Assembly: GCA_947455995.1 (NCBI GenBank)
Contig: CANGQA010000010.1
Span: 1 to 50,576, forward strand
Length of the DNA stretch: 50,576 nucleotides
Source of the DNA: Hyphomicrobiales bacterium
GTDB taxonomy: Bacteria; Pseudomonadota; Alphaproteobacteria; Rhizobiales; Beijerinckiaceae
Reading direction: 5' to 3'
In this document: positions 24,581 through 29,382 of the stretch, in pieces
Numbering within the stretch: the stretch's first letter is position 1
How the letters are laid out: each line of letters begins with the position of its first letter
Program-made: the position numbers and the translations under genes
Notes under the pieces: model-generated
The model's database searches: none
What the model was told of the DNA's origin: nothing
Seen by the model: only the letters and a program-made list of their open reading frames with translations

Positions 24581-25660
24581 ATGACCACCCCTCAGACCCC
24601 GATCCTTAACCTCGCCAGCGACAATGTATCTGGCATGAGCCAGCCGGTTCTTGCCGCGTTGATTGCTGCCAATTCCGGACCTGAGCCTGCTTACGGGTCA
24701 GACCAGTGGACGGCCAGGGCCGAGGCTTTGCTGTCAGAGGTGTTTGAGCATGAGGTGAGTGTGTTTCTGGTCGCCACCGGGACCGGAGCCAATGCGCTGG
24801 CGCTGGCAGCCATGTCGCCACCCTGGGGAGCTATTTTCTGTCATTCGGAAGCCCATGTGCTTGATGACGAATGCGGCGCACCCGAAATGTTCACAGACGG
24901 GGCAAAGCTCGTCGGCGTACCTGGTGTCGGCGGCAAATTGACGGTGGAGGCTCTTGCACCCGTAGTCAGTCATTTTGCACCCGGCGTCATCAAATCGGTA
25001 CAACCTGCCGCTTTGTCGATCTCGCAGGTCACCGAGGCCGGCACGATCTACACGATTGACGAGATCAAGGCGCTGGGCCAGTTCGCCAAACAGCGCAAGC
25101 TGATGTTCCATCTCGATGGGGCCCGTTTCTGCAATGCCATGGTCACCCTGGGCTGCACGCCGGCAGAGATGACCTGGAAATCAGGTGTCGATATCGTCAC
25201 ATTCGGAGCCACCAAAAACGGCTGCATGGCCTGCGAAGCCATCATCTTCTTCAATAAAACGGATGCAGAATCCATGCCCTTCCGCCGCAAGCGCGGTGGA
25301 CATACGGTCTCCAAAGGCCGCCTGCTCGGCGCGCAGATGGTGGGCTATCTGGAAAACGATCATTGGATTGACAATGCCCGTCACGCCAATGCTATGGCGA
25401 CCGCACTGAGGCAAGGCCTCGAAACCATCCCGGGGGTTAAACTGCCTTGGCCGACCCACGCCAACGAAGTGTTTGTTGTGGTGCCGCAGAGTGCGGCCGA
25501 GCGTCTCACCAGGAACAAAATCCGCGCAGCACCATGGGACAGCGTCAGCCTGCCAGCGGGCTTTTCAATCGGCAAGGACGAACAGTTCTTGCGGTTTGTG
25601 ACGAGTTTTACAACCACCAAAACCGATATTGCGACCGTTTTACAGACAATCACCGGCTAG
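24581..25660 (+). CDS. Low-specificity threonine aldolase (beta-eliminating lyase family)
   Basis: This 359-residue PLP enzyme of fold type I cleaves L-threonine or allo-threonine to glycine and acetaldehyde. Seen: LASDNVSGMSQPV near the start, SEAHVLDDECGAPE, HLDGARFCNAM (cofactor-binding aspartate), and the Schiff-base lysine in TFGATKNGCM (K212). The ATG at 24581 has AGGAGAG 7 bases upstream; an in-frame extension to 24530 has no homology. It converges on the hisN gene with a 24-bp gap and shares no operon. Stereospecificity (L or low-specificity) cannot be read from the sequence. Confidence 0.92.
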   Translation: MTTPQTPILNLASDNVSGMSQPVLAALIAANSGPEPAYGSDQWTARAEALLSEVFEHEVSVFLVATGTGANALALAAMSPPWGAIFCHSEAHVLDDECGAPEMFTDGAKLVGVPGVGGKLTVEALAPVVSHFAPGVIKSVQPAALSISQVTEAGTIYTIDEIKALGQFAKQRKLMFHLDGARFCNAMVTLGCTPAEMTWKSGVDIVTFGATKNGCMACEAIIFFNKTDAESMPFRRKRGGHTVSKGRLLGAQMVGYLENDHWIDNARHANAMATALRQGLETIPGVKLPWPTHANEVFVVVPQSAAERLTRNKIRAAPWDSVSLPAGFSIGKDEQFLRFVTSFTTTKTDIATVLQTITG

Positions 25661-25684: not shown

Positions 25685-26467
25685 TCAGGCATTGAGCAGT
25701 TTGAGCACTTGCTCATGGAGACGTGGATCACCGCAGGCAACAATAGAGCCGCCATTGGCAGGAGACCCCCCCTGCCAATCGGTGACCACACCGCCCGCGC
25801 CTTCGACAATCGGCACAAGGGCGACAATATCGTAAGACTTCAACTTGGTTTCGATAACAACATCCATATGGCCCGCCGCAATCATTGAATAGGCATAGCA
25901 GTCACACCCATAGCGCGTGAGACGAGCCAGCGATTCAACCCGCTGATAGGCTTCCTTGTCACGACCCTCGAACATCACGGGGGTGGTGGTCGACAAGGTC
26001 GCCTCCTTGAGAGAGGTGCAGGCCCGCGATTTCAGGATGCGCTCACCGCCTGGTCCGCGCCATTTGGCCACCCCGCCATCGCCGAAAAACCGCTCGCGCG
26101 TAAAAGGCTGGTGCATCATGCCGTAGCAGGGTCGGCCGTTGCGGGTCAGACCAATCAAAGTACCCCACAACGGCAGGCCTGAAATGAAGGCCTTGGTGCC
26201 GTCGATCGGATCCAGCACCCAGACAAATTCGGCATCCTCGTTTTCACTCCCATATTCCTCGCCGATAATACCGTGCTCGGGGAAGGTCGACTTGATCATC
26301 TGCCGCATGACCACTTCACTGGCCCGATCAGCCTCTGTGACAGGATCAAATACTCCACCGGGTGCTTTATCGGTTGCAGCCAGAGATGTACGGAAAAACG
26401 GAAGGATCGCAGCGCCCGATTGTGTCGCCAGATCATCAACAAAAGATGCAAAATCTACCGCAGACAT
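25685..26467 (-). CDS. hisN: Inositol-monophosphatase-fold histidinol-phosphatase
   Basis: This 260-residue member of the IMPase superfamily has metal-binding residues E70 (GEEYG), D86, D89 and T91 in WVLDPIDGTKAFISG, and a C-terminal SYDIVALVPIVEGAGGVVTDW motif. The IDGTKAFISGLPLWGTLIGL wording is that of HisN, the histidinol-phosphate phosphatase used by alphaproteobacteria and actinobacteria in place of HisB. Inositol-1-phosphatase (SuhB) activity is the alternative. The start at 26467 follows GGGGAGA by a few bases; 26494 adds 9 residues without support. It diverges from the mmgR-like sRNA candidate. Confidence 0.87.
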   Translation of the reverse strand: MSAVDFASFVDDLATQSGAAILPFFRTSLAATDKAPGGVFDPVTEADRASEVVMRQMIKSTFPEHGIIGEEYGSENEDAEFVWVLDPIDGTKAFISGLPLWGTLIGLTRNGRPCYGMMHQPFTRERFFGDGGVAKWRGPGGERILKSRACTSLKEATLSTTTPVMFEGRDKEAYQRVESLARLTRYGCDCYAYSMIAAGHMDVVIETKLKSYDIVALVPIVEGAGGVVTDWQGGSPANGGSIVACGDPRLHEQVLKLLNA

Positions 26468-26818
26468 GATGTCTCCCCTACATTCACAGACCATTCAGTA
26501 CGACCTGATGAAGCCATTGCAATGGCCAAACAGTATGGATGGTGATGTTTAGAGACGTGATTCCGGCCCGCCATGCAAGCCACAACAGCGTCCAAGGTCA
26601 TAATACATCCCTTTTGCGACCCGAGCCTGAAGCCTGAGTTTTAAGATACATCTGCAAAAAACGGGATCAAAACCCCAAAATTCAGATGAGGCATGCATTA
26701 ATAGAGGGTCTTAATTTAGCTAAAAAACAAATAACCCTATGATTTATAATGATTTTTATTGTTTTATCTGAATCGTCACAAGACTTGCTTTTTGTGCGCC
26801 GCAAGAGCATATTGTTGC
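26468..26818. promoter_or_regulatory. hisN-sRNA divergent intergenic region
   Basis: About 350 bp without a gene, AT-rich from 26690 to 26770. On the plus strand CTTGCT (26784-26789) and GCATAT (26807-26812), 17 bp apart, resemble an alphaproteobacterial sigma-70 promoter that would start transcription near 26819, just where the predicted sRNA begins. Nothing else is recognisable. Confidence 0.4.
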
Positions 26819-26909
26819 AACACGATATTGCGCTGTGCGCGACATCCCGTTGCCCTTCTTGGGCGTTTCCTCCCTAGACTTTGGCCGCCGCACAGGTGGC
26901 CTTTTTTTT
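26819..26909 (+). ncRNA. mmgR: Candidate alpha-r8 / mmgR ('suhB') family small RNA
   Basis: The segment contains a short hairpin GCCC-TTCTT-GGGC (26852-26864), then the single-stranded 10-mer TTTCCTCCCT (26866-26875), then a G+C-rich terminator stem (26883-26901) with eight Ts. As I recall it, the alpha-r8/mmgR sRNAs of Hyphomicrobiales, Rfam family 'suhB', are about 77 nt and keep exactly this order with the UUUCCUCCCU core. The neighbouring genes, an IMPase-like gene and N-formylglutamate amidohydrolase, also fit the genomic context I recall for the family. In Sinorhizobium the RNA limits polyhydroxybutyrate storage. The 5' end is estimated from the promoter-like motif. Confidence 0.68.
26883..26909 (+). 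terminator. Rho-independent terminator of the sRNA
   Basis: Stem GGCCGCC / GGTGGCC (one G-U pair) with a 5-nt loop, followed by eight consecutive Ts. No plus-strand protein gene precedes it, which is what first pointed to an sRNA here. Immediately after it ACAGG-TCG-CCTGT forms a second small hairpin. Confidence 0.75.
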
Positions 26910-26943
26910 GACAGGTCGCCTGTAGGCCATAGGCAACCATTGA

Positions 26944-27870
26944 TCACTCGGCAGCAAGCTGTTCTCTTTGGATAGTGTTTCCCCAAGGCGATCCCTCCAT
27001 GGCTTGTGCCAGCGCATTGGTCATCTGCAGCATATCCGCTTGCAATACCTTGAAGCCGCGATGGAGCTGGTAGCTCCGCTCGTCCATGTAGAGAGCGCGA
27101 TTGATTTCGATCTGGATCGCATGCAAGCCCTGTTTGGGTTGCCCATAATGCTCTGTGATGAAGCCTCCCGCAAAAGGGCGGTTCCGAGCGACTTTATAGC
27201 CGGCTGCCGTCAAGCTTTGTTCCACCACATCGCTGACCAGCGCCGTGCAGCTGGTTCCGAACCGGTCACCGATCACGATATCGGCGCGCCGGTGCAAATC
27301 GCGCAGCGGCAAAGAAGGCATCGAATGGCAATCGACCAACACGGCAAAACCATGCCGGCGATGCAATAGCCGAAGCAATTGACCCAATTTTTCATGATAA
27401 GGGTGATAGAGCGCATGGATACGAGCCAGAGCCTCCGCCACTTTCAAAGGCTTTTGGTAGATTTCAGCCCCGTCAGACACAATTTTGGCAATTGTACCCA
27501 AACCCGCCGATACTCTGAGGGAGCGGATATTGGCATAATCGGGCAGATCATCGTCAAACATCGAAGGATCAAGCTCGAAAGGCTCCCGGTTTACATCCAG
27601 AAAAGCACGCGGGAAATGTGCCCTCAGCAGCAAAAGACCCCGTTCGGTCACCGGTGCGAACAGGTCATCGACAAACATATCCTCGGAGCGGCGCAGACTG
27701 ATGGGGTCGAGGCGCGAGGCGGCAACAAATTCAGGAGGATACTGAGCCCCGGAATGGGGGGAATTGAACAACAGTGGCCCCGATGCCATGGGGTCGCCAT
27801 GCACTTCGAATGGCAAATCAAACTGATGAGCCTGATATGAATACACCTCTGGCTCCCGAGCGAAAACCAC
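26944..27870 (-). CDS. N-formylglutamate amidohydrolase family protein
   Basis: This 308-residue FGase-family enzyme would hydrolyse N-formyl-L-glutamate to formate and glutamate, or act on related N-formylated amino acids. Seen: LLFNSPHSGAQYPPEF, the DVNREPFELDPSMF segment, VDCHSMPS and ITEHYGQP with conserved H and E, all typical. The start is a GTG at 27870 with no good ribosome-binding site; a GTG eight codons later (27846), preceded by GGGAG, would remove 8 residues. No hut genes are near, so a role in histidine degradation is not shown by context. It lies 39 bp after the gene for the TPR membrane protein and may be its operon partner. Confidence 0.88.
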   Translation of the reverse strand: MVFAREPEVYSYQAHQFDLPFEVHGDPMASGPLLFNSPHSGAQYPPEFVAASRLDPISLRRSEDMFVDDLFAPVTERGLLLLRAHFPRAFLDVNREPFELDPSMFDDDLPDYANIRSLRVSAGLGTIAKIVSDGAEIYQKPLKVAEALARIHALYHPYHEKLGQLLRLLHRRHGFAVLVDCHSMPSLPLRDLHRRADIVIGDRFGTSCTALVSDVVEQSLTAAGYKVARNRPFAGGFITEHYGQPKQGLHAIQIEINRALYMDERSYQLHRGFKVLQADMLQMTNALAQAMEGSPWGNTIQREQLAAE

Positions 27871-27909: not shown

Positions 27910-29382
27910 TCAAGGCCGGTCGAAGCTCAGATCATATGGGTTGAGATTGCGTGCTTTGGCGAACATCTCGCGCGCTTCCTCCGCCTGACCCGAAAGAATC
28001 AAACTTTGTCCCGCCAGCCCATAAGCGCTGGCAGACAAGGGTGATTGCCGAATATGGCGTTGCGCTTCGGCGACAACAGTTGCGACATTCAAAGCGCTAT
28101 CCCCGAGCTTCAGCCCCATCACATCGAGCCGCAACCGCCATTGCGGTTTGTTCCATGACAGGCCTGCCGGCAAATCCTTTTCGAAACAGGCTTGCGCCCG
28201 ATGGACGAGATCAAGCTGTTGGGCCAAAAGGGCCCGCATAACCTGATGCTGGCAGGACCATTCATCATTGGCGCCGAACCGGTCGGATTGCGGGGCGCTC
28301 CAGTGGCGGCGGTTGATCAGGCCATCCCAAGCCGCTAGTTCGGTTAGCATGGGCGCCAAAGCGGATAATACTGGCGCTTGCAATTGGGCTGGTTCCTGCC
28401 TGTGATCAACCGCCATCGGAAGATCTTTAGACCAGATAATCTCGCCACTTTCCACCAGCACCAACCGCAACATCAAGGACCCGTTGCCGGTTTTGCGGAT
28501 AACCAGCTGGAAATCAGGCAGCAGGCCGCGCTTGTCACCCTGCACACTGGAATCCAGCACGATAATGGCATCGAAACGCGACAACGCATCGCGCAGGTCA
28601 TCGACCCATACACCAATCCCAGGCACAGAGGACTCCGCAACCACCATCAGCTTAGCAGGCTGGAAGCCCCGCACGGACTGGCCTGCCGTGGCTGACAAGG
28701 CCTTGTCAGGTCTTTGGCTAACGAGCGAAGGCGACACATTGTACCAGGCCACAACAAAAAAAGCGGCGAGCAGGCTCAACCCCAGCAAAACCAGTTTCAA
28801 ATCCGGCGGCAATGAAGCGAATGAAAGCCCAAAAGTCGTTTCGGGCTGTTTGGCAACTGGAGCGGGGTTAATCGGCTCAGGATCAACGGAAGCGGCAACA
28901 GCTGGCTGGTGTAAGTCCTCACGCTCCTTGTGGCCATCAGCAAGGGCGGTTAGTTTTTCGAGCAGCGAGATACTCAGCTGCGGCATGGTCTGCGCCTGAG
29001 CCAAGGGCGCAGCAGCAGGAATAAAACTGACCCCATATTGCCCGCGCTCTATGTGCAGATGCAACGGATCGCTGGCACCTTCCTGTCCGTAATAGCGCTG
29101 CATGGCGCGCCGCAACCGCGTCGCCTCGACCCGGACGATCGGATCGGCCTGCGGATCAAAATGATCGGGACGCATAAAAACCTGAGTTGCGATGGTATAG
29201 GCTTTGAGTGTGTCGGCCTTGCCCTCGACAGAGCGACCAACACAAAATGTCAGAAATGCGGTCAGACGCGGCGATGACCTGAACTCGTCACTCGCCAGAA
29301 TTTGCATTAATGCCTTTTGAACGGCTTCCGGATCAGGGCAGGCTTTGCCACCCGTTTCCTCTGTTTGTTGTGCCAACGGCAT
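27910..29382 (-). CDS. Membrane protein with adenylate-cyclase-associated type N-terminal domain and C-terminal TPR
   Basis: This 490-residue protein starts with a domain (about 20-120) reading ILASDEFRSSPRLTAFL, LKAYTIATQVFMRPDHFDP, DPIVRVEATRLRRAMQRYY and then a beta-hairpin ending GQYGVSFIP. This block is widespread in rhizobial proteins annotated as adenylate cyclases or TPR proteins and probably signals or binds DNA; its role is not settled. One membrane helix follows (about 210-230: LKLVLLGLSLLAAFFVVAWY). A periplasmic part with an FDAIIVLDSS segment leads to a C-terminal TPR-like repeat (YGLAGQSLILSGQAEEAREM). No cyclase catalytic domain is present. A ToxR-like single-pass regulator is my best guess. 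Confidence 0.7.
   Translation of the reverse strand: MPLAQQTEETGGKACPDPEAVQKALMQILASDEFRSSPRLTAFLTFCVGRSVEGKADTLKAYTIATQVFMRPDHFDPQADPIVRVEATRLRRAMQRYYGQEGASDPLHLHIERGQYGVSFIPAAAPLAQAQTMPQLSISLLEKLTALADGHKEREDLHQPAVAASVDPEPINPAPVAKQPETTFGLSFASLPPDLKLVLLGLSLLAAFFVVAWYNVSPSLVSQRPDKALSATAGQSVRGFQPAKLMVVAESSVPGIGVWVDDLRDALSRFDAIIVLDSSVQGDKRGLLPDFQLVIRKTGNGSLMLRLVLVESGEIIWSKDLPMAVDHRQEPAQLQAPVLSALAPMLTELAAWDGLINRRHWSAPQSDRFGANDEWSCQHQVMRALLAQQLDLVHRAQACFEKDLPAGLSWNKPQWRLRLDVMGLKLGDSALNVATVVAEAQRHIRQSPLSASAYGLAGQSLILSGQAEEAREMFAKARNLNPYDLSFDRP

Follow-up and report, generated by a model that had tools for sequence, protein, structure and literature searches.

The alpha-r8 (mmgR/suhB) family of small RNAs, its core sequence, its linkage to an amidohydrolase gene and its promoter control have all been published already. 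The family shares the core 5'-UUUCCUCCCU-3' and is usually found adjacent to the amidohydrolase gene (PMC12559287). MmgR of Sinorhizobium meliloti, a single-copy gene there (PMC12559287), is described in a review as an RNA of 77 nt with three stem-loops (PMC7143759). According to another review, its regulation relies on a conserved dyad between the -35 and -10 elements, with AniA acting negatively and NtrC positively (PMC8401924). The core of the PhaR (AniA) motif in S. meliloti reads YGCRNYGCR (PMC12542648, PMC6201568), and gel shifts demonstrated the binding of PhaR to the mmgR promoter (PMC12542648). Control of mmgR by PhaR is not new, having been published for S. meliloti. In Caulobacter crescentus, where the alphaR8 siblings SisA-D and the sponge RNA CrfA have been described, SisA represses mRNA directly by pairing of this 10-mer within the 5' UTR (PMC12559287). 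For MmgR, the accounts we drew on describe no direct target (PMC12559287, PMC7143759).

An mmgR-family small RNA gene beside hisN

We analysed a window of 50,576 nucleotides from a Hyphomicrobiales bacterium, by which we mean the whole stretch of contig CANGQA010000010.1 under study. Searching the whole window with cmscan against the 4227 families of Rfam 15 gave a single match at gathering thresholds, to RF00519 (suhB/mmgR), which spans the model at full length (1-77 of 77) and scores 67.5 bits against a gathering cut-off of 41, with an E-value of 7.1e-12 over the whole window and all 4227 families. A preliminary description of this DNA, made without tools, had proposed an mmgR/alpha-r8 candidate at 26819-26909 and named RF00519 as the model to check it against; the candidate passed this check, and its reading is now confirmed. 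By its sequence, the locus is an mmgR-family (alpha-r8/suhB) small RNA gene, one of three in the genome. The features of the locus are as follows.

25685-26494, minus strand: hisN, histidinol-phosphatase, divergent neighbour (PF00459, 165.4 bits; TIGR02067 of NCBIfam, 324.9 bits, over the cut-off of 275.15)
26784-26789, plus strand: predicted -35 element CTTGCT, read from the sequence
26795-26803, plus strand: putative PhaR/AniA box TGCGCCGCA between -35 and -10, fitting YGCRNYGCR by pattern match
26807-26812, plus strand: predicted -10 element GCATAT, separated from the -35 by 17 nt, read from the sequence
26816-26824, plus strand: degenerate PhaR-type box TGCAACACG, the second of two at a 21-bp spacing, recognised from the relatives' sequence
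26819-26909, plus strand: predicted alpha-r8 (mmgR/suhB) transcript of about 91 nt, its start inferred from the -10 and its end from the terminator
26824-26846, plus strand: 5' stem-loop from the fold, for the most part not covered by the Rfam model
26845-26916, plus strand: RF00519 match, covariance model
26852-26864, plus strand: small stem-loop GCCC-UUCUU-GGGC, GCCCTTCTTGGGC in the DNA, from the sequence, the fold and the family consensus structure
26866-26875, plus strand: unpaired anti-Shine-Dalgarno core UUUCCUCCCU, TTTCCTCCCT in the DNA, the presumed pairing site, from the sequence, the fold and the published core
26883-26909, plus strand: intrinsic terminator with a 7-bp stem GGCCGCC/GGTGGCC at 26883-26901 and eight Ts at 26902-26909, from the terminator scan and the fold
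26944-27870, minus strand: N-formylglutamate amidohydrolase family gene, convergent neighbour (PF05013, 251.1 bits; TIGR02017, 108.2, below the cut-off of 278.75)

The limits 26819-26909 agree with the predicted transcript more closely than those of the Rfam match, because 26819 lies seven bases after the predicted -10. The elements that had been read by eye also proved correct: the 10-mer is identical to the published alpha-r8 core (PMC12559287), the small stem-loop before the terminator is kept in the family consensus structure, and the terminator with eight Ts stands on the plus-strand list of the terminator scan. The terminator had been said to have no protein gene before it on its own strand, and hisN, whose name is borne out by the TIGR02067 score, and the amidohydrolase gene are indeed both encoded on the minus strand. 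The nearest preceding plus-strand gene, aldolase-like, ends at 25660, and the plus-strand frames of 68 to 137 codons between it and the RNA, which overlap hisN or lie beside it, look incidental. Downstream of the amidohydrolase gene, a 490-residue frame at 27910-29382 on the minus strand has no Pfam match at an E-value of 0.001.

The surroundings, which the preliminary description had called usual for the family, agree with the published linkage and recur widely. Among 41 genomes including its own, 31 have at least one RF00519 copy over the cut-off, with 67 copies in total, and a class-wide draw gave 65 of 142 genomes, again with its own included. A PF05013 gene adjoins the RNA in the window; a copy lies at most 1.5 kb from an amidohydrolase gene in 26 of the 31 copy-bearing genomes, its own being one of the 31, and from either an amidohydrolase or a HisN gene in 29. 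Counted by copy, 30 of the 67 have an amidohydrolase gene within 1.5 kb, 27 have HisN, 24 have both and 33 have either. A HisN search of named genomes gave 80 further loci, in which we took the core plus GACTT as the criterion for a copy: 35 have a copy upstream of hisN, always divergent from hisN, and one further locus (L061) has the core with GACTC. The remaining 44 include Labrys, Salinarimonas, Rhodobacterales and gammaproteobacteria, and some end at contig edges. Of the named relatives, metagenome-assembled Hyphomicrobiales come closest, with 96% identity in HisN; the closest cultured strains are Alsobacter, with 76%.

Predicted fold of the RNA

The 92 nt from 26819 are predicted to fold into three stem-loops at -32.5 kcal/mol (z -3.3), and none of 200 dinucleotide shuffles was as stable. 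The core UUUCCUCCCU is single-stranded in this fold, downstream of the weak small hairpin and ahead of the Rho-independent terminator. The 5' hairpin extends mostly beyond the Rfam model. We compared it among 73 sequences of copies linked to hisN or the amidohydrolase gene, omitting the 6 without CTTG at the right distance; the 67 kept comprise 59 distinct sequences. Its z-score (mononucleotide shuffles) is below -1 in all 59, with a mean of -3.3, the window copy ranking with the weaker hairpins. One 8-3-8 hairpin shape fits 41 of the 59 sequences, corresponding to 35 distinct hairpins, and each of its eight pair positions shows at least four standard pair types, with a few mismatches, a count that leans towards this shape because the shape was searched for. 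The 5' hairpin is probably known already, since S. meliloti MmgR has been described with three stem-loops (PMC7143759).

The likeness to MmgR covers the core 10-mer, the three stem-loops and the terminator (PMC8401924, PMC12542648), whereas the predicted length of about 91 nt differs from the 77 nt reported, and the present genome has three copies over the cut-off where S. meliloti has one (PMC12559287). With SisA-D the locus shares the existence of several siblings with the same core and the position of one copy beside an amidohydrolase gene. The terminator region of one of the two copies on contig C1 resembles that of SorY (RF02651) at 28.9 bits, far below the gathering score of 111, and the window contains no RF02651 match at the gathering threshold.

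PhaR-type boxes in the promoter

The putative box at 26795-26803, TGCGCCGCA, lies between the predicted -35 and -10 elements, as the PhaR/AniA motif does in the mmgR promoter of S. meliloti (PMC8401924, PMC12542648); it fits the Bradyrhizobium motif TGCRNYGCASMA in its first nine letters only (motif from PMC12542648, PMC6201568). The pair CTTGCT/GCATAT is absent from the list produced by a scan for the general sigma-70 consensus. Where the window copy reads TGCAACACG, the linked copies of the genus relatives G001, G002 and G004 have TGCAACGCG.

The box is conserved well beyond this locus. It occurs at most 100 nt upstream of 53 of the 67 copies, compared with a mean of 10.6 and a maximum of 18 in dinucleotide shuffles and a mean of 6.2 and a maximum of 13 at random places in the same loci (200 rounds each), all of these counts ignoring kinship among the genomes. 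Linked copies are boxed in 31 of 33 cases and unlinked copies in 22 of 34, and all 31 genomes have at least one boxed copy; in the host genome, all three copies over the cut-off carry a PhaR-type box. Two boxes at a spacing of 21 bp were seen 16 times among the 67 copies, and of the 40 boxes preceded by a CTTG within 14 nt, 33 have it starting at a distance of 11 nt. In other families of the class, 21 of the best-scoring 28 loci are boxed (L206 was counted as unboxed, and minus-strand copies were placed by their distance to the core), against a mean of 2.3 and a maximum of 7 elsewhere. The boxes on all three copies contrast with SisA-D, for which no common promoter motif is reported in the account cited (PMC12559287). 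In the literature surveyed, we found no printed account of the breadth of this conservation, which Lagares, Roux and Valverde (2016) may describe.

Like S. meliloti, the host of MmgR, the genome has phasins, PhaR and Hfq: it encodes a PhaR domain protein (contig C23), two phasins (C102 and C79) and Hfq (C12:25143-25331), together with two matches to PHA synthase. The promoter of the C102 phasin gene contains CTTGAC, TGCAACGCA and TGCATTGCA, in the order seen in the relatives' RNA genes, and the region upstream of the C79 phasin gene contains TGCACTGCA and TGCAATGCA. The boxes before the phasin and RNA genes would fit PhaR holding both. The order CTTG-N7-box is found at 22 sites in the genome, versus 5 for the reversed pattern; the three RNA genes account for three of the 22 and the C102 phasin gene for a fourth. 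We inspected 7 of the 18 other sites (L176, L180, L184, L188, L189, L191 and L193) and claim no wider regulon, because all seven overlie stop-to-stop frames of at least 212 codons. The window copy is an intact family member at the usual family site, probably under PhaR control.

Candidate targets of the core

Pairing was compared with a set of 77 start regions of frames of at least 150 codons, which are not verified genes, from the window and the stretches L055-L057; each region is represented by the strongest-pairing of up to six starts, and the energies ignore Hfq. With the unpaired core alone, phasin mRNAs are unsupported as direct targets: 45 of the 77 regions pair at least as well as the C102 phasin start and 60 as well as that of C79. 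Lengthening the RNA piece brought the pairing with the C102 phasin to -30.1 kcal/mol, and a 36-nt piece that includes the small hairpin gave -32.1 kcal/mol, which none of the 77 regions reaches as long as folding is ignored. When the unfolding costs of both RNAs are counted, 37 of the 77 are at least as strong as C102 and 73 as C79, which weakens the case for direct targeting of the phasins.

The best core pairing among the 77 belongs to the gene of a solute-binding protein at about C1:2314-4269 (-22.1 kcal/mol). Another solute-binding protein gene, C94:10322-11818, was found independently through GGGAGGAAA, the exact complement of the core, and pairs with the core at -18.6 kcal/mol. With folding costs counted, 2 of the 77 regions are at least as strong as the C94 gene and 2 as the C1 gene, which is itself among the 77. 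Both proteins are SBP_bac_5 members. The G-rich ribosome binding site is kept in the close orthologue of the C1 gene (G002) and in a homologue with 52% identity (G006), and relatives of the C94 gene in G003, G015, G014 and G029 have G-rich ribosome binding sites too; the homologue of the C1 gene in G028 pairs weakly, and the piece of G004 examined is without the start of its C94-gene relative.

We extended the comparison to family-5 binding-protein genes, of which 23 were over the cut-off and 21 remained after L281 and L282, which showed no frame in the piece examined, were dropped. Their median pairing was -11.8 versus -9.2 for 75 other frames (one-sided Mann-Whitney p = 0.004), and -14 was reached by 4 of the 21 versus 4 of the 75; 8 of 200 shuffled cores gave a median difference as large as that of the real core. 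With the two prompting genes removed, the family-5 median is -11.4, the p-value of 0.004 belonging to all 21. We regard this result as a hint only, because two of the members tested had prompted the test. On modest evidence, chosen after the fact, mRNAs of family-5 ABC-transporter binding proteins may be better candidates for direct targets than those of the phasins. One of the RNA copies, C1:6990 (L055 6990-7062), lies about 2.7 kb from the C1 solute-binding gene with the best core-pairing start region, and on contig C5 of G002 an RNA copy and the orthologous solute-binding gene are equally close.

A model for the RNA and its alternatives

Expression and function of the RNA in this organism are what we infer from these comparisons. 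We think it probable that this alpha-r8 RNA, encoded by one of three such genes in the genome, is an Hfq-type small RNA that is released when storage granules titrate PhaR and that blocks ribosome binding sites. When granules are few, PhaR would occupy the box and the RNA would be blocked. Upon build-up of the storage polymer PHB, PhaR would move to the granules and leave the box, and the RNA would be made together with phasin. With Hfq, the core UUUCCUCCCU would then pair with G/A-rich ribosome binding sites and lower translation, and its likely targets may include, on weak evidence, the mRNAs of family-5 ABC-transporter solute-binding proteins.

The same RNA could instead have the direct repression of phasin mRNA as its main job, as was first proposed for S. 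meliloti MmgR. A core-less S. meliloti mutant has more phasin protein at unchanged mRNA levels, according to the review cited (PMC8401924), the present host has two phasin genes, and the 36-nt piece pairs best with the C102 phasin start when folding is ignored; this advantage is lost both with the core alone and, in energies that ignore Hfq, once the unfolding of both RNAs is counted. We consider direct phasin repression as the main job somewhat unlikely, and the phasin effect in S. meliloti need not involve direct pairing of the core with phasin ribosome binding sites.

Another reading takes the window copy as a relic with decaying control sites and little expression, leaving the work to the two C1 copies. 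The mutated second box, the weaker 5' hairpin (z -1.4) and the presence of two other copies in the genome are in its favour, whereas the copy retains an intact core, intact hairpins and terminator, its first box and its synteny, and it occupies the hisN/amidohydrolase site, the one kept in 29 of 31 genomes, which makes a relic quite improbable. That there is no RNA gene at all, the hairpin and T-run being the end of the convergent amidohydrolase gene or a chance structure, is hardly credible. The hairpin does lie 42 bases past the end of that gene; however, the structure is not its terminator, because the Ts trail the stem on the plus strand only and the gene is on the minus strand, and chance is countered by the E-value of the RF00519 match and by the conservation of the promoter and the 5' hairpin along with it.

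Under the PhaR-titration model, a broader role can be imagined, in which the alpha-r8 siblings of this lineage, wired to PhaR, report the state of the granules, so that full granules would release the RNAs along with phasin and reduce the uptake of peptides and other solutes through pairing at the ribosome binding sites of the family-5 mRNAs. We hold this broader role to be unlikely on present grounds; if true, such a signal of full stores would limit further import and would be kept across much of the class. With this locus, the PhaR-boxed form of the RNA is placed in a multi-copy, uncultured lineage of Hyphomicrobiales. What the analysis adds to the published picture is modest, namely how widely the box is conserved and a hint at targets; if the latter holds, it would provide concrete direct targets of alpha-r8 RNAs outside Caulobacter and link granule state to nutrient uptake.

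Core complements and further copies

The core complement GGGAGGAAA occurs at 19 sites in the genome, versus 10 for the reversed pattern. Three correspond to the RNA genes read on the opposite strand; of the other 16, 13 lie within stop-to-stop frames of at least 270 codons on one strand, another, in C94, is clearly a ribosome binding site, and the last two are non-coding. The non-coding sites, G000:C8:13012-13020 (L038) and G000:C37:17342-17350 (L047), have no evident terminator or strong hairpin in their surroundings, and the latter has a PhaR-type box, TGCGTTGCA, just upstream. Among these exact sites, we identified no sponge RNA like CrfA.

Besides the three copies over the cut-off, namely the window copy and the two on C1, the genome has one weak RF00519 match, G000:C9:21087-21152 (L004 1501-1566, minus strand), which scores 32.4 bits, below the cut-off, and includes a terminator and a core reading UAUCCUCCCAAGACUU. 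This match may represent a divergent sibling, or else a different anti-Shine-Dalgarno RNA. In G001, G002 and G003, similar matches follow directly downstream of a conserved stretch bounded by the closing arms GGACCCGG and CCGGGTCC, to which neither Rfam (L004) nor ARAGORN (L057) gave a name. Copy number reaches 12 over the cut-off in the relative G017, where two copies score equally, on contigs C3 and C5, and several are without a PhaR-type box. Tandem copies about 270 to 740 bases apart stand beside the hisN/amidohydrolase site in L027, L023, L018 and L096, with three copies in G007 and three in the Ancylobacter locus.
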